Assembly (NCBI GenBank): GCA_020846935.1
Contig: JADLCY010000013.1
Span: 124,001 to 188,000, forward strand
Origin: Gemmatimonadaceae bacterium
GTDB lineage: Bacteria; Gemmatimonadota; Gemmatimonadetes; Gemmatimonadales; Gemmatimonadaceae
DNA length: 64,000 nt
Direction of reading: 5' to 3'
Shown: positions 4,238 through 35,271 of the stretch, one piece after another
Numbering within the stretch: the stretch's first letter is position 1
Layout: the number at the start of each line of letters is the position of its first letter
Translations under genes and position numbers: made by a program
The notes under the pieces: model-generated
The model's input: the letters and a program-made list of their open reading frames with translations, nothing else
Databases searched by the model: none
Told to the model about the DNA's origin: nothing

Positions 4238-6058
4238 TCAGCGCAATCCGCTCCGACGACGGATGATCCACTCCAGGCAAAACGCGGCGATCGCCAGCGC
4301 AAACAGGATCGGGAGGTCGCGCGCTCGCGGTCGCTCGCCAGAGGCCGCGCGCGTTCCATAATTGCCCGCGCGCACGGTGGGTCGGCGCGGCAGCAGCTCG
4401 GACGACGGATTCACCACAAGGAGCGATGCGCCGCCCGCGGCCTGGACATCGTATGTTCCGACCGGCAGCGGGGCCGATTCCGCGTCGATGCCCGTCGCGC
4501 CGAACCGCAGGGCGAGCGTATCGCTGCTCACCACCGAGTCAGCGCGGCGAGTGAGCACCACGCGCACCACGCTGTCCGCTTCTGCGCCTCGTCGCCACCG
4601 CACACGCTCGCCCTGTCGGATGGACGGGGCGTAGGGAATGGCGGCACGCACGTCCGACCGTTCGCCGGCAAGCCAGTCGAGGGCACTCCCCCACACGGCG
4701 GTGAACGCATCGGCACCCGCGCCCCCTCGAAAGCGCCAGCGCCAGTAGCCAGAGGCACCACTCACGAGCACCCGGCGCGGCGTCTCCCAGCCGACGATGG
4801 CCACGCGACGGTCGAGCCGACGAGCGCGTCGCGTCTCGAGCACCTCGAACTGGGCCTCCGGCAGGCTCGCGGCCACTTCGAGCGGCGGGAGCGAGTCCCA
4901 CGGCGTTCCGGTGAGCGCTGCACTCATCGGAGAGGGCGGCGCGCCGGTGGCAAACCACTCACCGGTGTTGCCGCCGGGTGGCGCGACCAGGGCAAGGGCT
5001 CCGCGCGTGACATCGCGCGGCGGCCCGAACAATGAGGTATCCCCATGCAGGACCACGAGCGGCGCGTTGCGGATCGCGCGACGCACCACGTCTTCGGAAA
5101 CCGAAGCCAGCGTGCCGTCCTCGCGCCATTGTCCGGGCGCAACGCGAAGGTAGGTCCGCGTGGGGAGCGCCGCGGTGCCGCGGAGCAGCGCCGCCAATTC
5201 GCGCGAATCGAGGTCCGGCGCCGTCGACACCAGCACGGCGGCCGCGGCCGACCCCACGTCGACGGCGGTGGCCGACGCGTCATTGCGTGGGTCGGCATCG
5301 CCGGTCGACGTGAAGGACGCTCGCAGCTCACGATCGCCGGCTGCGGTCCCCGCCCGGGCGGCAGGCGCCACAAAGCGCAGCGTCACCGCCCGCTCGCCGA
5401 ACGCGCCCAACGAATCGAGCGTCGCGGTGGCCACCTGGCGTCCGTCGAGCGTGAGCGCCAGCGTGCCCGCCCCGGCACCACCGCTCCCGGCTCCCACCGT
5501 AACGCGCACGTTGACCGTGTCGCCATCCGACGCCACACGCGGAGCAAGCACCTCCGTGACCGCTGCGTCGCGCGAACGGGCCTCAGGCGCGACCTCGACA
5601 CGGGATCCCGCCGGCAAGCCGGCGAGCGCGTCGGGGTCGTCGATCTCACCGTCAGTGTACACCAGCAGCGGGCGCCCCGAGGCGATTGCGCGTTCGACCA
5701 CCGGCCGGAGCCGGGACGCCGCATCCAGGCTCGGCGTCGCCGCCGTCGCCCGGCGCGAGGAGTCGCCGAATGCGATCACGGAGTCCGACGTCGCTTCCAG
5801 CGCCGCCGACCGCGACGCCACATAACGCGACGAGTCTCCACCCCGCAGCCAACTCGCGGATGCATCCAGGGCAACCAGGGGTCGCGCCGCGCGCGCCGTC
5901 CCGAGGATCACGTTGAGGGCCAGCGCGGCCGCGGTGGTCATGCCCACGGCCCGCAGGAGCATCGTGATGCGCTCGCCGCGTGCGCCGGCGAGAGCTTTGG
6001 GATACGCGATATACGCACCGGCGGCGCCGATGACGAGGGCGAGCAACCAGAGAATCAT
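4238..6058 (-). CDS. Membrane protein with degenerate von Willebrand-like region (BatA-like)
   Basis: This 606-residue protein has transmembrane helices at the N-terminus (about 1-20 and 35-55) and one near the C-terminus (about 580-600, followed by IIRRRSGLR). The region after the second helix contains VALDASAS, which looks like a weakened MIDAS motif, and YTDGEIDDP, as in von Willebrand A folds. The middle resembles bacterial CARDB/Ig-like repeats, followed by segments rich in beta structure. This topology recalls BatA-type membrane proteins of aerotolerance operons, but no MoxR ATPase or DUF58 gene is adjacent. Its function is unknown. The 133-base gap upstream shows nothing I can name. 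Confidence 0.8.
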   Translation of the reverse strand: MILWLLALVIGAAGAYIAYPKALAGARGERITMLLRAVGMTTAAALALNVILGTARAARPLVALDASASWLRGGDSSRYVASRSAALEATSDSVIAFGDSSRRATAATPSLDAASRLRPVVERAIASGRPLLVYTDGEIDDPDALAGLPAGSRVEVAPEARSRDAAVTEVLAPRVASDGDTVNVRVTVGAGSGGAGAGTLALTLDGRQVATATLDSLGAFGERAVTLRFVAPAARAGTAAGDRELRASFTSTGDADPRNDASATAVDVGSAAAAVLVSTAPDLDSRELAALLRGTAALPTRTYLRVAPGQWREDGTLASVSEDVVRRAIRNAPLVVLHGDTSLFGPPRDVTRGALALVAPPGGNTGEWFATGAPPSPMSAALTGTPWDSLPPLEVAASLPEAQFEVLETRRARRLDRRVAIVGWETPRRVLVSGASGYWRWRFRGGAGADAFTAVWGSALDWLAGERSDVRAAIPYAPSIRQGERVRWRRGAEADSVVRVVLTRRADSVVSSDTLALRFGATGIDAESAPLPVGTYDVQAAGGASLLVVNPSSELLPRRPTVRAGNYGTRAASGERPRARDLPILFALAIAAFCLEWIIRRRSGLR

Positions 6059-6191
6059 GGGGGAATGGTACGCACCGCGCCGAGCCCGACGGCGGTGACA
6101 AGGGGCGAAGCGCAGGAGCAGCGGCCGGCATGACGTCGAGCGCCCACAAGTTCAGCACCGGGCCACCGTTCCGGGAGTCCCGAATGTCAGG

Positions 6192-7460
6192 TCAGTCGTG
6201 ATCCCGCACCGTGTCCGATGGCGAGGAGGCGCCGTTCGCGTGCTGGTCGAGCCGCGCGAGCGCAATGGTCCGCGCCCGATCAAAGGCCGAGCGTTCTGAC
6301 GCCTCGAGCGGTGCGCCGGCGGTGGACGACAGCGCGGTCCTCGGGTTCTGCTGGACGCCACGCACCAGGACTTCAAAATGCAGGTGCGGCGCGGTCGCAA
6401 GGCCGGTCATACCGACGAAGCCGATGGTCTGGCCGATCCCCACCCGCACGCCGCGCCGGATGCCGGTCGCGAATCCGCGCAGATGACCGTACCGCGTGAC
6501 GAAGCCGTTGGGGTGGCGCACATCGATCACGTTGCCGAATCCGCTCATGCGTCCCGCCGTGACCACGACGCCGTCGCCGATCGACCGGACAGGGGTACCG
6601 GAGGACGCAGCATAGTCGGTGCCGCGATGACGCCGAACCACGCCGAGGATCGGGTGGCGCCGCATGCCGAACACCGAGGAGATCCGACGGAACTCGAGCG
6701 GCGCCCGGAGGAACATCGCCTGCATGCTGCGTCCGTCCTCGTCAAAGTATCGTGCTCGGCCTTCACTGCCTGGCAGTCGGATCACGCGCAGTCGCTTTCC
6801 CCCCGTGGTGTAGTCCACGGCGAGCACGTTGCCCACGCGCACGACGCCCGTGGTGGTCTGCTGTCGCTCGATGAGGACCAGGAAGGCATCACCCTCCTGC
6901 AGGTCGCGGCTCATGTCCAGGCGGTACTCGAAGACGTCGGCAACATCCCACGCGAGTTCGGCGCGCACATCCCGGGGCAGGTTTACGGCCCCTCGATCGA
7001 AGGCGTCGTAGAGATTCGCGCCAAGGGTTCCGCCGACGACCAGGGTGTCGGTCGTCCAGGGCAGCGACTCTTCGGCACCGACCCAGCCCGAATCGCTGCG
7101 ACGCAGGCGCAGCAGGCGGTCGACCGCGAGGTGGAGCACGATCTCCGACGGCACGGAGTCGGCGGACTCGGCGCCCAGTGTGATGCGCATCCCGGCGCGG
7201 AGGCGCCGAGGATCGAGGCCGGCGGTGGCCGCGTCCAACGCGTCCTGCGCTTCCTTGCCCGTGAGGCCGAGTCGATCGAGCAGCTCGGTGATGGTCTCCC
7301 CGCTGCCTAACGTGTCGACCCGGGTGACCCACGATGGCACCCGACGGCCGGAGAGGACGGTCCCGGCCTTTCGCTCCGGGAGCGGGCGCATGACAGCAAT
7401 GGCGCCCCAAGCCAGGAGCGCCACCGTGAGAAACGCCAGCACGCGACCCATCGGTCGCAT
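6192..7460 (-). CDS. M23 family metalloendopeptidase (periplasmic murein hydrolase)
   Basis: This is a secreted LytM/OapA-type zinc peptidase, predicted to cleave peptidoglycan cross-bridges. It has an N-terminal membrane anchor or signal (about 7-25), then a LysM/OapA-like substrate-binding region around 45-100. The C-terminal M23 domain has the metal motif HRGTDYA (HxxxD) near residue 285 and HLHFEV near 370, both intact. The layout matches MepM-like hydrolases. I chose the ATG at 7460, which overlaps the ftsZ stop as TGATG; an in-frame TTG at 7463 is also possible. The coupling to ftsZ suggests a role in septal wall splitting. Confidence 0.9.
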   Translation of the reverse strand: MRPMGRVLAFLTVALLAWGAIAVMRPLPERKAGTVLSGRRVPSWVTRVDTLGSGETITELLDRLGLTGKEAQDALDAATAGLDPRRLRAGMRITLGAESADSVPSEIVLHLAVDRLLRLRRSDSGWVGAEESLPWTTDTLVVGGTLGANLYDAFDRGAVNLPRDVRAELAWDVADVFEYRLDMSRDLQEGDAFLVLIERQQTTTGVVRVGNVLAVDYTTGGKRLRVIRLPGSEGRARYFDEDGRSMQAMFLRAPLEFRRISSVFGMRRHPILGVVRRHRGTDYAASSGTPVRSIGDGVVVTAGRMSGFGNVIDVRHPNGFVTRYGHLRGFATGIRRGVRVGIGQTIGFVGMTGLATAPHLHFEVLVRGVQQNPRTALSSTAGAPLEASERSAFDRARTIALARLDQHANGASSPSDTVRDHD

Positions 7461-8686
7461 CAATCCATCTGCCTCCGGATGAACGTCGGAATATCGAGAT
7501 CCTGAATCTGATCCGCGGGGCGCGCTGATGGCGAGGGGGGCGCGTGCGGCGTGGACGAGGCCGGCGGCATGAAGCGTCGGTTCGGATCCGGCGGCGCCGG
7601 CTTGGCGATGGCACGCGGCGGAGGCGGAGGCTGGATGGCCGTGCGCCCGGTGTTGATCGGAATCACCGTGCGCGAGTTCCCGCCCACCGCGGGCTGTGCA
7701 TGCGCCGTGACCCCGGTGTGTCCAAACGCGCGGTCGAACCCGGTGGCGATGACCGTGACGCGAATCTCGCCCTGCATGGCCGGCTCGTGCACGGCGCCAA
7801 AGATGATCTCGGCGTCATCGCCCGCGGCGTCATGCACGATCTCGGAGATCTGCGTGACCTCGCCCAGGGTGAGGTCGCCGCCGCCGGTGATGTTGAGCAG
7901 CACACCGGACGATCCGGCGATGGAGATGTTGTCGAGCAACGGCGAGGAGATCGCCTGCTGGGCCGCTTCCATCGCCCGGTTTTCGCCCCGACCGATTCCG
8001 GTGCCCATCAGCGCGGAGCCGCCGTTCTGCATGACGGTGCGCACGTCGGCGAAGTCGACGTTGACGAGGCCCGTGCGGGAAATGAGCGTCGAGATGCCCT
8101 GCGTGGCGTGCAGCAGGACCTCGTCCGCCTTCTTGAGCGCGTCCTGGAACGGGATACCCTTGCCGACGACCGCCAGCAGCCGCTCGTTGGGCACGACGAT
8201 CATCGTGTCCACGTGCACGCGCATGTCGGTGATGCCCATTTCCGCCTGGCGCATCCGCTTGCGTCCCTCGAAGAGGAACGGCTTGGTGACGATGCCGACC
8301 GTGAGCGCCCCGACGTCCTTTGCGAGTTCGCACACGATCGGCGCCGCGCCCGTCCCGGTCCCGCCGCCCATGCCGCAGGTCACGAAGACGAGGTCGGATC
8401 CGCTGAGAGCGCGCTGCACCTCGTCGCGATTCTCCTCGATCGCCTGCCGGCCGATCTCGGGGCGCGCCCCGGCGCCGAGCCCCCGCGTCAGCTTCTTGCC
8501 GATCTGGATCTTCACGTCCGACTTCGACGACAGGAGCGTCTGCGCATCGGTGTTGATCGAAATGAACTCGACTCCTTCGAGTCGCTCATCGATCATGCGA
8601 TTGACGGCGTTCCCACCACCGCCGCCGACGCCGACGACCTTCATCCTGGCGTTCTGGCTCGCGTTCTCCTCGAATTCGAAAATCAT
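7460..8686 (-). CDS. ftsZ: Cell division protein FtsZ
   Basis: FtsZ is the tubulin-like GTPase that forms the division ring. The 408-residue protein has the GTP-binding tubulin signature GGGTGTG at 107-113 and the N-terminal VGVGGGG loop at 18-24. A proline-rich, low-complexity linker covers about 325-395. The conserved C-terminal peptide ([13 protein letters not shown]) binds FtsA. The reading frame is open upstream to 8920, but the start must be the ATG at 8686, because homology begins there and a GGGGAG ribosome-binding site lies about ten bases before it. The 278-base gap to ftsA suggests ftsZ has its own expression signals. Confidence 0.97.
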
Positions 8687-10943: not shown

Positions 10944-12328
10944 CCGCCGCGTGGCGCGGCGAGCCGCGCCAGCAGTTCGGGTCCGGTCCGCGTGATGTCA
11001 CCGGCTCCCATCGTCAACACGACGTCGCCCTCGCGGACCTCGCCGACCAGTGCCGCCGCCAGGTCCGCTCGCGCGCCGCGCCAGACGGGCCCACGGCCCC
11101 TCTCCATCAGGCGTGAGGCAATCAGATCGGACGTCACGCCGGGGATCGCCCGCTCACGCGCGGGGTAGATGTCGGCCAGGTAGCAGGCATCGGCGATCGC
11201 GAGCGCGTCGCCGAACTGCGACGCAAAATCCCGCGTGCGCGAATACAGGTGCGGCTGGAACGCGACGACGACGCGTCGGCCCGGGAACGCGGCACGCGCG
11301 GCGTCGAGGGTTGCGGCGACTTCGGTCGGATGGTGTGCGTAGTCATCCACCACGTCCACGCCCGCGGCGCGGCCGAGCCGCTGAAAGCGGCGTTCGACGC
11401 CGCTGAAGGCCTCGAGCCCGGCGCGCATCGCCTCGAGCGTCGCGCCTGACGCGAGGCCGGACGCGATCGCCGCAAGTGCGTTGCGCACGTTGTGCAGCCC
11501 GGGTACACGCAACACGACGTCGCCCAGACACTCGCCGTCGAAGTACACCGCCACCGCGGTACGGCCGTCGACCAGCGTCGAGGGCACGCCGCGCACCCGC
11601 GTGTTGGCCTCGCCCAGTCCGTAGCGCAGTACCTGCGCCCCACCGGTGACGGCGAGGCTCGCGGCGCCCGGATCGTCGTCGCAGAGCACGACCGTATGCG
11701 CCGGTCCGGCAAACTGCACAAAGGCGCTCCGGATATCATCGAGATCGCGATAGATGTCGAGGTGATCGGCTTCGACGTTCGTGATCACCGCCACGGTGGG
11801 GCGCAAGGCGAGAAAGGAGCGATCGTACTCATCGGCTTCGACGACGAACACCGAGTCACCACCGAGGCGCAGGTTGCCGCCCCACGCGCCCACACGACCT
11901 CCCACGATGCCCGTGGGTGCAAGGCCCGCGGCGGCGAGCGCTTCGGTGGTCATGACGGTGGTGGTCGTCTTGCCGTGCGTGCCGGCGATGGCCACCACCC
12001 GACCTGCGTTCACGACCTCGCCCAGGGCCTCGGCGCGCCGGATGACGGGGACGTTGGCCGCGCGCGCCGCGTCCAGCTCGGGATGCGATCGAGGCACGGC
12101 GGAGGTCACCACCACCGCGCGCGCGCCCGCCACATGCCGCGGATCGTGTCCGGTCTCGATCGCAACGCCGAGCGCCGCAAGGTCCGTCGCGCCCGCCGCC
12201 TGACTGTCACACCCGCTCACGCGCACGCCGCGCCGAACGAACAACTCGGCGAGCGCGCTCATGCCGGCGCCAGCGATCCCCATGAAGTGCACAGGGCGTG
12301 GATCTGAGGGATCGAGAAGGCTCGTCAC
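10940..12328 (-). CDS. murC: UDP-N-acetylmuramate--L-alanine ligase MurC
   Basis: MurC adds L-alanine to UDP-MurNAc, the first amino acid of the peptidoglycan stem. The protein has an N-terminal Rossmann region with HFMGIAGAGMS at about 14-24, the ATP-binding GTHGKTTT at 116-123, and the central and C-terminal Mur ligase domains. The frame is open to 12634, but that extension overlaps murG and does not look like MurC. I chose the GTG at 12328, which gives 462 residues, a normal length. No good ribosome-binding site is seen, so the start could be a few codons off. Confidence 0.95.
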   Translation of the reverse strand: MTSLLDPSDPRPVHFMGIAGAGMSALAELFVRRGVRVSGCDSQAAGATDLAALGVAIETGHDPRHVAGARAVVVTSAVPRSHPELDAARAANVPVIRRAEALGEVVNAGRVVAIAGTHGKTTTTVMTTEALAAAGLAPTGIVGGRVGAWGGNLRLGGDSVFVVEADEYDRSFLALRPTVAVITNVEADHLDIYRDLDDIRSAFVQFAGPAHTVVLCDDDPGAASLAVTGGAQVLRYGLGEANTRVRGVPSTLVDGRTAVAVYFDGECLGDVVLRVPGLHNVRNALAAIASGLASGATLEAMRAGLEAFSGVERRFQRLGRAAGVDVVDDYAHHPTEVAATLDAARAAFPGRRVVVAFQPHLYSRTRDFASQFGDALAIADACYLADIYPARERAIPGVTSDLIASRLMERGRGPVWRGARADLAAALVGEVREGDVVLTMGAGDITRTGPELLARLAAPRGG

Positions 12329-12357
12329 CGTGGGCAATCTACGTGCGGTGTCATGGA

Positions 12358-13455
12358 TCAGACGCGGCTCCGCAGCAACACGTCGAGGCGCGTGGCAATC
12401 ACGTGCGCGGCGTCGGGCCGCGCACGGCGCAGCGCGCCCTCGGTGAGCTCGCGGCGGCGTGCGGGGTTGGAACTCAGGCTCTGCACGAAGGCATTGAGGG
12501 CGGCCGGCGTGGCCTCCCTTTCCGAAATCCACGCGGCGGCCCCGGCGTCGCCGAGCGCGCGAGCGTTGGCCGTCTGGTGATCGGCCGCCGCCGTCGGTAA
12601 CGGGACCAGGTACATGGGGATGCCCCACGCGCACAACTCGGCGGTGATCGAGCCGGCGCGCGACACGGCCACGTCGGCGGCCGCGTATGCCTCCGCGATC
12701 GGGGCGAGATACGGCCGCACGCGTACCGTCGACGATTCGCGGCCCGCATGGCCTGTGTAGTGTGCCTTGCCCGTTCCCCAGATCACGCCGACTCCTGGCG
12801 GCAGCCCACCGGCGATCCAGGCGTCAACGAGCGCATTGAGGGCAGCCGACCCCTGTGAGCCACCGACCACCAGCGCGACGGTCGTCACCGTCGCATCGAA
12901 GCCCCACTCGGCACGGGCAGCGCCGCGATCCGGGCGCGGCGCCGGCGGTGGTTCGATCGGGTTGCCCACGTCGATCACGCGTTCGCGTACCTGCCCAGGC
13001 AAGCGCCTGGCAACCTCCGGAAAGCTGGCGTAGATCTCGCGGGCCCATCGGGAGAACCAGACGACGGTCTTGCCGGGGAAGGCATTGGATTCCTGCAGCA
13101 CAAACGGAATGCCGCGCACGCGCGCATACGCCAGCGTCGCGCTCGACGCGTAGCCTCCGGTGGCCACGACCAGGCGCGGACGTTCGCTGGCCGCGAGTCC
13201 GGCAACGGTGCGCCAGCCACTCACGAGGCCACGCAGCGTCGCCACATTGCGCCACGGCGCCGCGCGGTAGAGCGGATACAGGTCGAGCAACGTGTGCGGG
13301 AATCCGGTCGACGGGAGGACATCCCGCTCCAGTCCGCGCCGGGCCCCAATGAAGTGCGGCTCCACGTCCGGCCGGACCTGCACGAGCGCGCGTGCGATCG
13401 CCAGCGCCGGATACAGGTGTCCGCCCGTTCCGCCTCCGGTAAAGAAGACCCGCAC
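12358..13455 (-). CDS. murG: UDP-GlcNAc:lipid I N-acetylglucosaminyltransferase MurG
   Basis: MurG transfers GlcNAc onto lipid I to make lipid II on the inner face of the cytoplasmic membrane. The 365-residue GT28 protein carries the N-terminal glycine loop GGGTGGH at 7-13, a second glycine-rich loop at VVGGSQGSAALN near 205-215, and the UDP-GlcNAc-binding region RAGSITAELCAWGIP near 275. It sits immediately downstream of ftsW. This is the usual order. Confidence 0.97.
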   Translation of the reverse strand: MRVFFTGGGTGGHLYPALAIARALVQVRPDVEPHFIGARRGLERDVLPSTGFPHTLLDLYPLYRAAPWRNVATLRGLVSGWRTVAGLAASERPRLVVATGGYASSATLAYARVRGIPFVLQESNAFPGKTVVWFSRWAREIYASFPEVARRLPGQVRERVIDVGNPIEPPPAPRPDRGAARAEWGFDATVTTVALVVGGSQGSAALNALVDAWIAGGLPPGVGVIWGTGKAHYTGHAGRESSTVRVRPYLAPIAEAYAAADVAVSRAGSITAELCAWGIPMYLVPLPTAAADHQTANARALGDAGAAAWISEREATPAALNAFVQSLSSNPARRRELTEGALRRARPDAAHVIATRLDVLLRSRV

Positions 13456-29577: not shown

Positions 29578-30055
29578 GGCGCATCGAGACGACGCGGACT
29601 TCCCCGGTCGCGACGTCGAAGTACACGCTGCGGCCGTAGTCGCCCCCGACGTCTTCGCCGATCAGGGGGATGCCGCTCGCCGCCAGCCGCTGCTTCACGG
29701 CATCGACGTTGCGCTCTCCCATGTTGACTCCCGACGAGAGGAGCGCGCCGAACATCGAGGCGCCGCCGACGATGCGTGCGACGGGCTGAGCCCGCGAGCC
29801 GTGGCGTCGCATCTCGTTCAGGAGGAACGGCACCGCGGTCGAGCCGAACTTGGCCGGGCGCGACCGGTCTCGCGACAAGGACTCGTGAGGCAGGAGCACG
29901 TGTGCGAGTGCGCCAACGCGCGCCACGCCGTCGTGCAGCATGACCGCCACGCACGACCCGAGCCCGACCGACGACAGGACGCCTCGTTCAACAAGGACGC
30001 CCCAGGCCGCGACCGGGACGTGCGTCTCGACGGGCACGAGCGTCGGCGTCGTCAC
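29558..30055 (-). CDS. cheD: Chemoreceptor glutamine deamidase CheD
   Basis: CheD deamidates specific glutamines of chemoreceptors and can activate the phosphatase CheC, which is encoded in the same cluster. The 165-residue protein has the conserved GLGSCVAV with nucleophile Cys35 and the LAHVLLP segment with His52. The start is GTG at 30055, overlapping the DUF4388-TPR gene stop as GTGA. The end overlaps cheB by 20 bases, so cheD and cheB are likely co-translated. Confidence 0.95.
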   Translation of the reverse strand: MTTPTLVPVETHVPVAAWGVLVERGVLSSVGLGSCVAVMLHDGVARVGALAHVLLPHESLSRDRSRPAKFGSTAVPFLLNEMRRHGSRAQPVARIVGGASMFGALLSSGVNMGERNVDAVKQRLAASGIPLIGEDVGGDYGRSVYFDVATGEVRVVSMRHGRRIL

Positions 30056-31668
30056 GCCGGTCGCCGGGCGCGATCGAGGTGCTGTCGGGCCGCGGGATTC
30101 TCCGGTGCCAGGGCAAGAGACCGCTCCCAGCAGCGCGTGGCATCATCGAGCTCGCCGCGAGCATGGCGCAGGTTGCCCAGCGCGAGCCACACGTCCCCCC
30201 CGAGGTCGGGCACGAGGCGCACGGCGCGCGCGTAACACTCGAGGGCATCGGTGGCCTGGCCCGCTGCGCCATGAAGGTCGCCGCGGTTCTTGTGCAACTG
30301 CGCGAGGGTCGGCGCCTCCTGCAGGCCGCGATCGAGATGGGCGGCCGCCTCGCCGCCGCGCCCACGCCGTTCGAGCACCACCGCGAGATTGTTGGCCAGC
30401 ACGGCATTGTGCGGGTGCAGCGACGCGCCCTCGGACAGGATGGCGATCGCGCGATCGAGTTCTCCGAGGTACGCCGCGGCAAGTCCGGCGTAGTGATACC
30501 ACGCCGCCGCGCGCGGCCGACCGTCGCCGCGGAGCGCCGAGGCGCGCAGGGCGACGTCGGCCGCCTCCACGTCGCCTCGACGCAGGGAGAGCACCGCTCC
30601 GGTCAGCAGCACCGATGGATCGTTAGGCAGGAGGCGCTCGGCGGTCGCGTGAGCGGCCCGGGCTTCGTCGAAGCGGCCGAGCTTCTCGAGCGCATAGGCG
30701 AGGTTGGCGTGCAGGGCGCCCTTGCCGGGCGCACGGGCCACCGCCCCTCGCAACACGCGCACGGCCTCGTCGTGGCGGCCCTGCCGGATCGCGAGCAGGC
30801 CAAGGTAGAACTCCGCCTGCACGTCGTGGGGCTGCAGGTCCGCCACGCGCCGGAACTCGCGCACGGCTTCGTCCAGCATCCCCGATTTGTAGAAGGCCAC
30901 GCCGAGGTTGCTGTGCTCGGCCACGCGCGTGGCAAGGGCCGGCGCGTCCTGCGTGCGGCGTCGCCCCACGCGATGGAGGAATCCCGCCGTGATCAGCCCG
31001 AACAGCGCCTTGCCCATCTCGAACTCGCCGAGTCCCGACAGGTCCATCAGGGCCGCGACGTCGCGGGTTCCATCGATCAATGGCAACACCGCATCCTGAT
31101 CCATCGTCAGCTCGACGCGGGACGCCTCGAGATGCGTCCGGTCGAGGGCAAACACGCAGTCGAATCCGGGAATCTTCTTCTCGATCAGGCTCCACTCATC
31201 GATGCGCCGCGCACCCTCGAGCAGCAGCGACTCGGGGTTGATCGATACGACGAAGTCCTGCTCGTCCGGCGTCACGTCCGCCTCGAACGAGAACGTGCCC
31301 TGCGTCCAGGTGAAGAGGTAGTACACTGCCTCCTCGATCTGCCGCTTGATGTGCTGGTGGAGTTCTTCGCGCGCCAGGAAGTCCTTCGCGACCAGGATCT
31401 CGCCCAGCCGCCGATCGGGCTGCGAGGCCTGCTCGGCGATGGCAATGTCCAGCTGCTCACGGGCGATGATCCCGTTGCTCACCAGCAGGTCGCCCAGCCG
31501 GTCGCGCCGGTTGACGATGCTCGCGAACGCAATGCGTCCCCGTTCGAAATAGATGCTTCCGAAGGCGTTCTTGTGCGTGACCGAGAGGCAACCGGTCTTC
31601 TTCCCCATCGCCAACAACTGGAGAACGTCCGTGAGGCTGGCCTCGCGCAGGGAACCGCGGATCGCCAT
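30052..31668 (-). CDS. DUF4388 (PATAN) protein with C-terminal TPR array
   Basis: The 538-residue product starts at ATG 31668, overlapping the upstream stop as TGATG. Residues 1 to about 240 form a DUF4388/PATAN-type region: LREASLTDVLQLLAMGKKTG, GSIYFERGRIAFASI, two LG(D/E)(L/I)LV repeats and TWTQGTFSFE. Residues about 260-535 form around eight TPR units. PATAN domains are known from cyanobacterial chemosensory regulators such as PatA. A partner role for the CheA/CheY or MglA proteins is inference from context. It is homologous in its N-terminal half to the protein at 34123-35271. Confidence 0.88.
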   Translation of the reverse strand: MAIRGSLREASLTDVLQLLAMGKKTGCLSVTHKNAFGSIYFERGRIAFASIVNRRDRLGDLLVSNGIIAREQLDIAIAEQASQPDRRLGEILVAKDFLAREELHQHIKRQIEEAVYYLFTWTQGTFSFEADVTPDEQDFVVSINPESLLLEGARRIDEWSLIEKKIPGFDCVFALDRTHLEASRVELTMDQDAVLPLIDGTRDVAALMDLSGLGEFEMGKALFGLITAGFLHRVGRRRTQDAPALATRVAEHSNLGVAFYKSGMLDEAVREFRRVADLQPHDVQAEFYLGLLAIRQGRHDEAVRVLRGAVARAPGKGALHANLAYALEKLGRFDEARAAHATAERLLPNDPSVLLTGAVLSLRRGDVEAADVALRASALRGDGRPRAAAWYHYAGLAAAYLGELDRAIAILSEGASLHPHNAVLANNLAVVLERRGRGGEAAAHLDRGLQEAPTLAQLHKNRGDLHGAAGQATDALECYARAVRLVPDLGGDVWLALGNLRHARGELDDATRCWERSLALAPENPAARQHLDRARRPA

Positions 31669-33485
31669 CAGCCCAGGTCCTCCAGCAAGCGCCCCGTCGG
31701 CTCCGGCCACTCGGCGACCACCTTCTCGGAGTCGAAGAAGAACGAATCAAGGGCGCGACGCGCCGAGGTCGCCTCGGTGACGCCGGCGCCAACGGCGACC
31801 GGTTCCCGCTCCTCGGGCACCATCGTCGGGTCTGCGGGCGCATCGATCGTCGGTGCGGCCGCCTCGTCGCCCTCGGGCACCGGCGTGTGGCGTCCGAGCC
31901 GATCCGCCGGTCCCGGCGGCGCCATGGTGACCACGAGCCCACGCTCGACGACCGTGCGCAGGCGATCGGCAATGCCGAGGTAGGCCGAGAGTGGGCGATC
32001 GCTGGTAAGCACCACCGGTCGCTGCTCGGCGCACACCGCGGTGAGGAGTCGCAGCAGCTCGTCCTGCACGGCCTCTCGTCCATCGATCGCCTGGAGACCG
32101 TCGATGATGAGTGCGTCGACCGCGCCGAAGCGCGAGCGCCAGGACTCGAGGCGTTCCTGGTGGATCGCCTCCGTCAGTTCATCGACCAGCGAAGACCCGC
32201 TCACGCAGGCAATGCTCCGACCGGCGCCATGACGGGCCGCGAGCACGTTGCCGATCGCATGCGCCAGGTGCGTCTTGCCTGACGCCGTTGGCCCCACGAT
32301 GAGCAGCGGGTTGGCAGCGCGTCCTGGCGCGTCCGTGATCGTGGCCGCGGCGTGCATGGCGGCCCGGTTCCCGGCGGTGCGCACGAGCGAGGCCATGCTG
32401 TACTCCGGCAGCGGTCCGGGCGGAGGGTCCGTCGCGGCGAGCGCACGGCGCACCAGCCGCTCCGCTTCGGGAAGCCGATCGGGATCACGAAAGACGGCCT
32501 GCCCGGCGAGCGACGGGTTGACCGCAATGGCCTGACTCTCGAGCGCGCGCAACCGTTCGGTGACCGCGGCGAACGCGGCATCGAGTTGCGGCACGTCAGG
32601 GGCTTCGGGGAGTTCGAGCGCCTGTTCGAGGATGGCAGTGCGAAAGCCCTGCCCGGACCACCACGCGATGCGCTCGCCGAGCCGAAGGCGCCACCCATCC
32701 ACCGAGGCCGCGACACCGCTCGCCACATCCTGCAGAAACGACGTGAACTCGTCGGACGGCCCGACCGCGACCGCACCCCCAATGACGTCGCGCACCTCAG
32801 CCACCGAGAGTGGTTCAGCGCTGCGCGACTGCCGGGCAATGAGCCGATGCAGCGCCGCTTCCATCTCGCGCACGCTCGCACTCGAGCCCCTGGCGAGTTC
32901 TTCGAGGACGCCGTGACCAAAGCTGGTGCGGCGGTCTGCGCATTTGCGCTGGAGGATGGCGACGCGCGTCCCGTGGTCGGGCGCGCCCAGGTCGACGATG
33001 AGCCCGCCGGAGAGTCGGTTGAGCAGCCGGTCGTCCACGTCGGCGATGTCGGCGGGCGCGCGATCCGAGGCCATCACGATCTGGCGGCCGCTGCTCTGCA
33101 GCGCGTTGAAGACGCGCAGCACCTCACTCTGCGTCTCACGGCGACCGGACAGGGCCTGGACGTCATCGAGCAGGAGGAGCCCCACGGTCAGGTAGCGCCG
33201 CTTGAACGCCTCGGCCTGTCCCGTTGCGATGGCAAGGTGCAATTCCTCGACGAACCCCTCGAGGGTCACGTACACGACCGAAAGCGTCGGGTGCAGTGAC
33301 TGTGCGCGGTGACCAATGGCGGCGAGCAGGTGCGTCTTCCCGAGGCCCGGCGGCCCGAACACAAAGAGCGGATTGTAAACCGCGCCCGGGTGCTCCGACA
33401 CGTTGCGCGCCGCCGACACTGCCAGGCGGTTGGCATCGCCGACCACGAAGGCCTCGAAGGTGAACTGCGCGTCGGGGAGCGTCAT
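31668..33485 (-). CDS. Protein with two tandem DnaA-like AAA+ modules, no DNA-binding domain
   Basis: Residues 8-220 match DnaA domain III closely: FTFEAFVVGDANRLA, Walker A GPPGLGKTH (44-52), Walker B LLLLDDVQ (103-110), sensor 1 ASDR (139-142), an arginine-finger-like region with Arg157, and sensor 2 SVREMEAAL (204-212). Residues about 362-525 repeat the fold: Walker A GPTASGKTH (398-406), Walker B ALIIDGLQ (458-465, second acidic residue replaced by Gly) and sensor 1 TSDRP (494-498). A helical linker joins them. The C-terminal DnaA helix-turn-helix is absent; instead there is an acidic linker and a tail with SFFFDSEKVV and GRLLEDLG. It lies four bases past the mglA stop. The frame extends to 33593, but homology starts at ATG 33485. 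Confidence 0.9.
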   Translation of the reverse strand: MTLPDAQFTFEAFVVGDANRLAVSAARNVSEHPGAVYNPLFVFGPPGLGKTHLLAAIGHRAQSLHPTLSVVYVTLEGFVEELHLAIATGQAEAFKRRYLTVGLLLLDDVQALSGRRETQSEVLRVFNALQSSGRQIVMASDRAPADIADVDDRLLNRLSGGLIVDLGAPDHGTRVAILQRKCADRRTSFGHGVLEELARGSSASVREMEAALHRLIARQSRSAEPLSVAEVRDVIGGAVAVGPSDEFTSFLQDVASGVAASVDGWRLRLGERIAWWSGQGFRTAILEQALELPEAPDVPQLDAAFAAVTERLRALESQAIAVNPSLAGQAVFRDPDRLPEAERLVRRALAATDPPPGPLPEYSMASLVRTAGNRAAMHAAATITDAPGRAANPLLIVGPTASGKTHLAHAIGNVLAARHGAGRSIACVSGSSLVDELTEAIHQERLESWRSRFGAVDALIIDGLQAIDGREAVQDELLRLLTAVCAEQRPVVLTSDRPLSAYLGIADRLRTVVERGLVVTMAPPGPADRLGRHTPVPEGDEAAAPTIDAPADPTMVPEEREPVAVGAGVTEATSARRALDSFFFDSEKVVAEWPEPTGRLLEDLG

Positions 33486-33489
33486 GTGC

Positions 33490-34095
33490 CTAACGCCCCG
33501 CCGGCTGCGGCGCCGCGAGGCGCTGGAGCACGAGCTGCGAGACCTTGCGCAGGGTCTCGAAGACCCCGGTTCCCGCCAGTGCATCGGCCGCAAAGCTCGG
33601 GACGCCGCGGAAGTTGAGGGCGGCGTCCAGTTCCCCGCGACTCATCACGAGGTCGGCGGGCAGATCCTGCTTGTTGTACTGCAGGACCAGCGGCAGCGCG
33701 CGCGCGTCCACGCCCTGCTCGGCAAGCACCTCATGCATGTCGCGGAGGCTTTGCAGGTTCTCCTCGCGTTGCCGGCGCTGCGAGTCGGCAACAAAGACCA
33801 CGCCGTCTGCACCCTGGAGCACGAGCTTGCGCGTCGAGCGGTAGTACACCTGCCCGGGCACCGTGTAGAGCTGGAAACGCGTGGCGAACCCGGACACGGT
33901 GCCCAGGTCGAGCGGGAGGAAGTCGAAGAAGAGCGTCCGTTCGCTGTGTGTCGCCAGCGACACCATCGAACCCCGTCGCTCCGGCGGCACGCGATCGTGG
34001 ATATAGTGCAAGTTCGTCGTCTTCCCCGAACGCCCGGGACCGTAGTAGACGATCTTGCAGGTCAGCTCCCGCGCCGGGTAGTTCACGAGCGGCAT
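33490..34095 (-). CDS. mglA: MglA-type small GTPase
   Basis: This is a Ras-like GTPase of the MglA family, which in Myxococcus sets cell polarity for gliding and type IV pili. The 201-residue protein has G1 GPGRSGKTT at 19-27, the MglA-type switch 2 TVPGQVYY at 78-85 (no Asp as in Ras DTAGQ) and G4 NKQD at 141-144. Its GAP (MglB) is not adjacent. It lies between the DUF4388 gene and the double DnaA-like gene. Its stop TAG falls within a CCTAACG motif copy (33489-33495). Confidence 0.93.
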   Translation of the reverse strand: MPLVNYPARELTCKIVYYGPGRSGKTTNLHYIHDRVPPERRGSMVSLATHSERTLFFDFLPLDLGTVSGFATRFQLYTVPGQVYYRSTRKLVLQGADGVVFVADSQRRQREENLQSLRDMHEVLAEQGVDARALPLVLQYNKQDLPADLVMSRGELDAALNFRGVPSFAADALAGTGVFETLRKVSQLVLQRLAAPQPAGR

Positions 34096-34122: not shown

Positions 34123-35271
34123 TTACGCATCGACGGCCTCCAGCACCGCGGCGAGCTGCGAGGCGTGCGCGATGGCGTGCCGTGCCTGTTCGCCCAGCGG
34201 ACTCTCCGGACACGCGGCGAGCACGCGCTGCCATGACTCGATCGCCCGCGCAAGCTCTCCATGGCGCGCGGCCAGGCGGGCGCGCTCCATCAACGCCCCC
34301 GCGTGCGCGGCGTCGGCCTCCAGCGCGATGCGCAATTCCTCGGCGGCCTCCGCTTCGCGACCCTGGCGCAGGAGCACCCGGGCGAGGGTGGAGCGTGCTT
34401 CCGGATCCTGCGGCGCCAGCGAGACGGCAGTTGCTGCCCGCGCGAGCGCGTCATCGAGCCGTTCGGCCAGCAGCGCATCCCGCGCCTCGGCAAGGCACGT
34501 GGCCAGATGTTCGCCTGAACGGTCGGGCTCCGTCGCGTCCGTCGGCGCCAGCACGTCGATCACGGCGATGGTCGCGAGCCCGAACGCAATGCGGGCCACC
34601 TCGAACTCTGAACGCTCGAGCGTGCGCGCGATGGCGCGCAGGTCCTGCACGCCATCGACCAGCGACAGGACCTCCCACTCGTGCGGGAGCAGATCCAGTC
34701 GTGAAGGCGCGATGCCCTCCTCGGCCTCGGCCAGCACCGGGATCACGGCGAGGCTCGGGATGCGCTGCTGAATCTGCGTCCATTCATCGAGGCGTCGCGC
34801 ACCCTCCATGAGCAGCGACTCGGTGGGAAGGGCTACCATACCCTCGGCCCCCGCCGGTGCCTGTACGTCTTCCTCGGCAAACGAGAAGAAGCCCTCCTGC
34901 CACGACAGCAGTTCGAAGACGACGGTTTCCACCTGACGCATGATCGCGCGCTCGAGTTCGCGCACCGAGACGACGTGCTGCGCCACGAGGATCTCGCCCA
35001 GGCGCCGGTCCTCACCGGGGGCCTCCTGCACGGCGCGCGCCCGCGCGAGGTCCGCTTCCGTGATGCGTCCCGAGCGAAGCAGGAGCGCACCGAGCGGGTG
35101 CGGATTCGATCGAATCGTCGCTGCGACGATGCGTCCGACGCGAAAGTACACCGTCCCCTCGTTGTCGCGCAGGGCAGACGACACGCGAAGGCGTCCCGTC
35201 TTTCGGCTCAGGTCCAGCAGTTGAAACACGTCGTGGATGCCAAGCTCGCGGAGCGGTCCCTCGATCGCCAT
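34123..35271 (-). CDS. DUF4388 (PATAN) protein with short C-terminal TPR-like region
   Basis: The 382-residue protein has an N-terminal DUF4388/PATAN-type region (LRELGIHDVFQLLDLSRKTG, GTVYFRVGRIVAATI, LGEILVAQHVVSVRELE, SWQEGFFSFAE) up to about 225, then helical repeats to the end (DPEARSTLARVLLRQGREAEAAEEL and following). It parallels the protein at 30052-31668 but has fewer repeats. It abuts the 899-residue TPR gene without a gap and precedes mglA by 27 bases. It is probably cytosolic. Its role is unknown. Confidence 0.87.
   Translation of the reverse strand: MAIEGPLRELGIHDVFQLLDLSRKTGRLRVSSALRDNEGTVYFRVGRIVAATIRSNPHPLGALLLRSGRITEADLARARAVQEAPGEDRRLGEILVAQHVVSVRELERAIMRQVETVVFELLSWQEGFFSFAEEDVQAPAGAEGMVALPTESLLMEGARRLDEWTQIQQRIPSLAVIPVLAEAEEGIAPSRLDLLPHEWEVLSLVDGVQDLRAIARTLERSEFEVARIAFGLATIAVIDVLAPTDATEPDRSGEHLATCLAEARDALLAERLDDALARAATAVSLAPQDPEARSTLARVLLRQGREAEAAEELRIALEADAAHAGALMERARLAARHGELARAIESWQRVLAACPESPLGEQARHAIAHASQLAAVLEAVDA

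Follow-up and report, generated by a model that had tools for sequence, protein, structure and literature searches.

A tandem DnaA-like ATPase with a conserved C-terminal tail, a putative adaptor in an MglA/PATAN chemosensory operon of Gemmatimonadota

The locus among described systems

DnaA domain III and the Hda/IstB/DnaC-type AAA+ helpers are the closest described counterparts of the protein examined here. Domain III shares with its first module the fold, Walker A, the paired aspartates (DD) of Walker B, the arginine finger and sensor 2, while the helpers share its DnaA-clade AAA+ core; its second module has an IstB family match at 1.6e-24, with 391-501 as the best stretch. As to gene neighbourhood, the accessible part of one report describes MglA and DUF4388 (PATAN) proteins side by side (PMC4316618), the same pairing as in our operon, and the term 'dnaa' is absent from its main text. 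The SgmX/FrzS/SopA network of Myxococcus, in which TPR and adaptor proteins control type IV pili with MglA (accessible part of PMC11580455), also has MglA, a TPR protein and adaptors in common with the operon, a likeness of parts; it differs in that this part of the report mentions no AAA+ adaptor. In the open-licence PMC literature we found no paper joining a DnaA-like protein with DUF4388 or MglA, no relevant paper on DnaA paralogs or on DnaA with chemosensory systems or Gemmatimonas, and on DUF4388 nothing beyond the subject of nitrite reductase.

The window, by which we mean the whole 64,000-nucleotide stretch of DNA analysed, comes from a Gemmatimonadaceae bacterium. Its relevant genes are:

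34123..35271, minus strand, second DUF4388 + TPR protein (DUF4388_1; Pfam)
33490..34095, minus strand, MglA-like small GTPase (Pfam, genome comparison)
31668..33485, minus strand, tandem DnaA domain-III-like AAA+ protein of 605 aa (Pfam and TIGR00362 matches, modelling)
30052..31668, minus strand, DUF4388 (PATAN) protein with an MshEN-type c-di-GMP motif and then TPR (DUF4388_2; Pfam, NCBIfam, neighbourhood), the favoured partner of the tail

Read along the minus strand, the operon runs CheA-CheC-TPR-DUF4388_1-MglA-tandem ATPase gene-DUF4388_2-CheD-CheB-CheW-CheW-TPR-peptidase, and it is conserved in relatives. MglA stands adjacent to DUF4388 proteins, as in MglA-PATAN operons. This context, in which the operon offers neither a clamp nor a transposase as partner, and the tail set the 605-aa protein apart from the Hda/IstB/DnaC-type helpers. 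In one relative (locus L049) Roadblock-like frames were seen by eye between DUF4388_1 and MglA (5816-7604) and a CheR-like frame after DUF4388_2 (11624-12601); none of these is present in the window's operon, and the two Roadblock matches of its own genome lie elsewhere, one of them beside an MglA paralogue.

The open frame of the ATPase gene spans 31668-33593 (minus strand) and is real, with the ATG at 33485 (MTLPDAQ..., 605 aa) as the most likely start. The protein matches Pfam Bac_DnaA (E 2.6e-85) and, over two matched stretches, scores 379 bits against the 343.9 cut-off of the NCBIfam DnaA equivalog TIGR00362, so genes like this one are likely misnamed DnaA. It differs from DnaA in having two modules, a helical middle domain and a tail: module 1 (1-226) is followed by a weak linker, the middle domain (266-358), module 2 (359-520), a disordered linker and the tail (579-605). 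Linker and tail thus form the C terminus where DnaA would carry the helix-turn-helix of domain IV, and neither domain IV nor a C-terminal DnaA family was found among the best 25 of 32 Pfam matches, to E 0.04. A separate single-module DnaA-like frame of 467 aa is present in the same genome at C8:287105. The full-length AlphaFold2 model averages pLDDT 87.5. The two modules and the middle domain lie near 95, and values fall below 50 at 238-261 and 543-578; the latter stretch agrees with the disordered-looking linker that the first-pass annotation had placed ahead of the tail. Between the modules lie:

32691..32756, minus strand, motif 1 (244-265, DEFTSFLQDVA...), a short conserved stretch N-terminal to the middle helical domain
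32412..32690, minus strand, middle helical domain (266-358; sequence comparison and model)

Motif 1 overlaps the low-confidence stretch 238-261 and recurs in most of the mini-proteins described below.

Two ATPase modules and the decay of the second

We compared the modules in an alignment of 74 full tandem proteins, namely the window protein and 73 chosen from two lists (29 and 61 references); we left out loci repeated from the first list as well as some near-copies, and a few rows may still represent one species with two labels. The motifs concerned are:

33330..33356, minus strand, module 1 Walker A GPPGLGKTH (44-52), K in 74/74
33153..33176, minus strand, module 1 Walker B LLLDDVQA (104-111), DD in 74/74
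32268..32294, minus strand, module 2 Walker A GPTASGKTH (398-406), intact in the sequence
32088..32111, minus strand, module 2 Walker B LIIDGLQA (459-466), with D462 kept and the second acid changed to G463 (sequence, alignment)
31938..31961, minus strand, module 2 box VII LRTVVERG (509-516), with V512 at the arginine-finger position (alignment)
31842..31895, minus strand, GRHTPVPEGDEAAAPTID (531-548), where relatives have the module 2 lid (in 7/7 lid-less subclade proteins)

Module 1 is a complete DnaA domain III: its fold matches that domain with Z 32, 38% identity and 1.2 A, the window protein has all catalytic residues, and across the alignment the arginine finger is R in 70/74 rows and the sensor-2 residue R in 72/74. 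An earlier proposal that module 1 is the active one fits this full residue set, from which ATP turnover may be expected.

Module 2 of the window protein carries the perfect Walker A described before, at 398-406, and a Walker B (459-465, LIIDGLQ) that has indeed lost its second acid; sensor 2 is absent, as also reported, together with the rest of the lid, and GRHTPVPEGDEAAAPTID stands in its place. What had been overlooked is the loss of the arginine finger, since the position of V512 is R in 70/74 rows. Thus, of the features of an active AAA+ module, Walker A is present, whereas the second Walker B acid, the arginine finger and the sensor 2/lid are gone. Because Walker A is kept while the water activator, finger and lid are missing, the suggestion that module 2 binds but does not hydrolyse ATP is the natural reading for the window protein. 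It is not a rule of the family: module 2 has an intact Walker A, DD and finger in 49 of the 74 rows, an outcome that the first-pass annotation had itself named as a refutation. The idea that Gly replaces Asp throughout the orthologues was rejected, and the asymmetry, real in the window protein, is lineage-specific decay.

The remaining rows show how this decay differs. Both Walker motifs are lost and the finger kept in 12; Walker A is kept, the acid lost and the finger kept in six; Walker A is lost with DD and finger kept in three; Walker A is kept with acid and finger lost in two (the window protein and L003); and Walker A is kept, with E-D and no finger, in a further two (L004, L006). A finger is missing from four proteins, that of the window and those of three genomes labelled as the same genus, in which module 2 is best read as a nucleotide-binding pseudo-ATPase of structural use only. 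Decay has run the opposite way in one group, where both Walker motifs are gone and the finger is kept, as against Walker A kept and finger, acid and lid gone in the window's genus. The 12 rows of the former kind include genomes of family f5 (e.g. L088, L089, L107), in which both Walker motifs are destroyed and the box VII arginine is retained; this combination suggests that module 2 could there be a finger donor for module 1.

Mapped onto a quick-method tree of the neighbouring DUF4388_2 protein (78 rows, support by SH-aLRT only), the architecture labels require 10 changes, with four proteins cut at contig ends (L044, L074, L075, L083) scored as full because their module 2 with its lid is present. 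Five changes concern forms that lack module 2 but keep module 1, the middle domain and the tail (at least three forced by starred branches), three the lid-less forms (at least two forced) and two the mini-proteins (at least one forced). In the window's subclade the seven lid-less proteins, that of the window among them, share R.TPV..GDEAAAP.ID in place of the lid. AlphaFold2 predicts this sequence to be disordered, it is found at a single place in the window's own genome (E 2e-15, next 0.2), and the motif could be a third docking motif.

A tail that outlives the ATPases

The C-terminal end of the gene comprises:

31671..31751, minus strand, C-terminal tail (579-605), with W593 invariant (alignments, profile)
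31666..31670, minus strand, TGATG stop/start overlap with the downstream gene, directly preceded by GAG-GAC codons, a Shine-Dalgarno-like site

Both sequences quoted previously for this region, SFFFDSEKVV and GRLLEDLG, lie within 579-605. The tail has the consensus EKxVWxWPDxxxRxIEExR and sits at or very close to the C terminus; W593 is kept in 74 of 74 rows, E587 in 71, E602 in 70, P594 in 65 and K588 in 62. It is thus far from freely variable. The expectation that it would be the best conserved part outside the ATPases is borne out only narrowly, since mean column conservation is 0.61 for the tail core and 0.53 for the whole tail, equal to the 0.53 of the middle domain (module 2 core, 0.57).

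In the window's own genome a tail profile finds only the tail of the 605-aa protein (E 2e-13, next 0.6), and in our phylum sample it matches 203 of 346 genomes, at one place each (two in one). In a wider search, aimed beyond the phylum, the tandem-ATPase/tail family accounts for 23 of the best 80 loci listed, 22 of them titled Gemmatimonadetes, Gemmatimonadaceae or Gemmatimonadales and one uncultured bacterium; of the 57 listed loci without the family, the 11 inspected were all single-module DnaA-like frames.

The tail is retained nearly throughout, also where both ATPases have been lost. We rejected the view that it belongs to the tandem ATPase only: it also occurs in mini-proteins and truncated forms. 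Module 1, middle domain and tail make up the protein in G021, G129, G132 and those members of families f6 and f9 that were sampled; middle domain and tail without ATPases are found in G019 and G034; and four genera (g5, g7, g8, g30) have ATPase-free mini-proteins of about 60-75 aa. In the latter the tail is accompanied by a short motif that resembles the beginning of the middle domain (matched at E 2e-2 to 2e-6; undetected in g5). Their dN/dS is 0.05-0.09 in g30 and 0.17-0.29 in g7, and in g5 one pair is saturated and a more distant pair gives 0.50; judged from these sequences, the mini-proteins are under purifying selection. The series from tandem ATPase through lid-less, single-module and middle-domain-only forms to the mini-protein amounts to a natural dissection of the indispensable part, and a 60-aa mini-protein allows the question of the partner to be put directly.

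Candidate partners and a proposed role

The first-pass annotation took the tail for a docking peptide, perhaps for MglA or a PATAN protein. Its conservation is consistent with docking, and gene neighbourhood and one natural fusion lead us to favour the PATAN option over MglA. DUF4388 occurs in 237 of the 346 genomes, including all 203 that carry the tail. Of 80 loci fetched, three were dropped since the DUF4388 gene was missing from the stretch; in all 77 others the tail/ATPase frame ends -19 to +168 nt from the DUF4388_2 start or is fused to it, an adjacency that counts as independent evidence for 45 loci because 32 had been drawn at DUF4388 or MglA hits. The fusion, in genome G231 (L097, 3114-6269, reverse complement), joins tandem ATPase, tail and DUF4388-MshEN-TPR in one frame of 1051 aa; its module 2 is without Walker A and Walker B. 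Among the 34 DUF4388 genomes missed by the tail HMM, 20 show a tail by eye and 10 involve contig ends, a partial domain or only another DUF4388 gene. The last four speak against a DUF4388 partner, as the tail has lost its Trp in G080 and G313 and no tail gene accompanies DUF4388_2 in two resolved genomes (G043, G047). Nor did AlphaFold2 dock the tail of the natural fusion on its DUF4388 domain (tail pLDDT 29-39), in a single-chain run with aligned rows for DUF4388 only, none for the tail, and the TPR part absent; the partner is accordingly one that we infer.

Adjacency to the DUF4388 gene may reflect translational coupling and not binding. The EE of the tail end is usually spelled GAGGAG or GAGGAN, about 7-9 nt ahead of the overlapping ATG, which makes it a plausible ribosome-binding site for the downstream gene. 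It would be rather improbable, in our judgement, that selection preserves the tail chiefly at the RNA level, its peptide having no partner, even though Shine-Dalgarno-like sites occur in 52 of 57 scored tails alongside the TGATG overlaps, the terminal Glu codons are GAG in 94/104 cases against 2138/2815 elsewhere (Fisher p 4e-4), and in the fused gene, where such a site is superfluous, EE is gone and KVVWDWP remains. A Shine-Dalgarno role accounts for part of the conserved GRLLEDLG end but not for EK..W.P: E587, K588, W593 and P594 lie some 30-60 nt before the start codon, beyond the reach of any such site, and the mini-proteins evolve with dN/dS of 0.05-0.29 within two genera. The codon test gives no clean split between RNA and protein constraint, since E587, which cannot belong to a Shine-Dalgarno site, has a similar GAG excess (52/60, p 0.06).

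Docking of the tail on MglA, with the DUF4388 gene merely a neighbour, seems to us unlikely. MglA adjoins the tail gene upstream in 48 of the 77 loci (three at only 40-43% identity) and MglA-PATAN neighbourhoods are known (accessible part of PMC4316618); mild support also comes from G007 and G292, which have no MglA at the locus and carry an altered tail (ENFVHRW). Yet 21 loci with sufficient upstream sequence have the tail gene and no adjoining MglA (eight more are not judgeable), and the genus with the most strongly selected mini-proteins has no operon MglA genome-wide, although a distant paralogue of MglA, encoded at another site in the genome, might still fill the role. We think it very unlikely that the tail bends back onto the ATPases of its own protein for autoregulation or joins the subunits of the oligomer: it does reach pLDDT 62-74 in the full-length model, above the linker at about 40, but is kept in mini-proteins that have neither ATPases nor middle domain.

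We therefore return to the DUF4388-MshEN-TPR protein as partner and consider it somewhat probable, overall, that the gene product is an ATP-gated adaptor which docks on that protein by its tail and whose module 2 is, in this genus, a pseudo-ATPase; our confidence in the anatomy of modules and tail is higher. The product would act in the MglA/PATAN chemosensory operon and not as a replication initiator. Module 1 would bind and hydrolyse ATP, its ATP binding controlling assembly, while the tail and the short motif before the middle domain would form a linear docking element tethering the downstream, translationally coupled DUF4388-MshEN-TPR protein, itself controlled by c-di-GMP; a part in motility or polarity may be supposed. 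More tentatively still, it is possible that a DnaA-derived tandem ATPase was captured in Gemmatimonadota as a regulator of an MglA/PATAN operon, its irreducible core being two short linear motifs and not the ATPase, with a stand-alone form of about 60 residues in some genera that by itself tethers the PATAN-TPR protein, and its module 2 decaying oppositely by lineage. If so, replication-type AAA+ machinery would have been recruited for bacterial surface signalling.

Binding of c-di-GMP by the DUF4388_2 protein is predicted from its MshEN motif NF053729, which scores 52.7 bits against a cut-off of 38 in the product of 30052-31668. The DUF4388 domain of the fused relative also matches the fold of MshE with c-di-GMP (5htl; E 6e-3), at 45% identity across 56 columns, and the helical insertion of PATAN may itself be an MshEN module. 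The protein of 34123-35271 likewise has an MshEN-type motif inside its DUF4388 domain, at 34.8 bits, just under the same cut-off.
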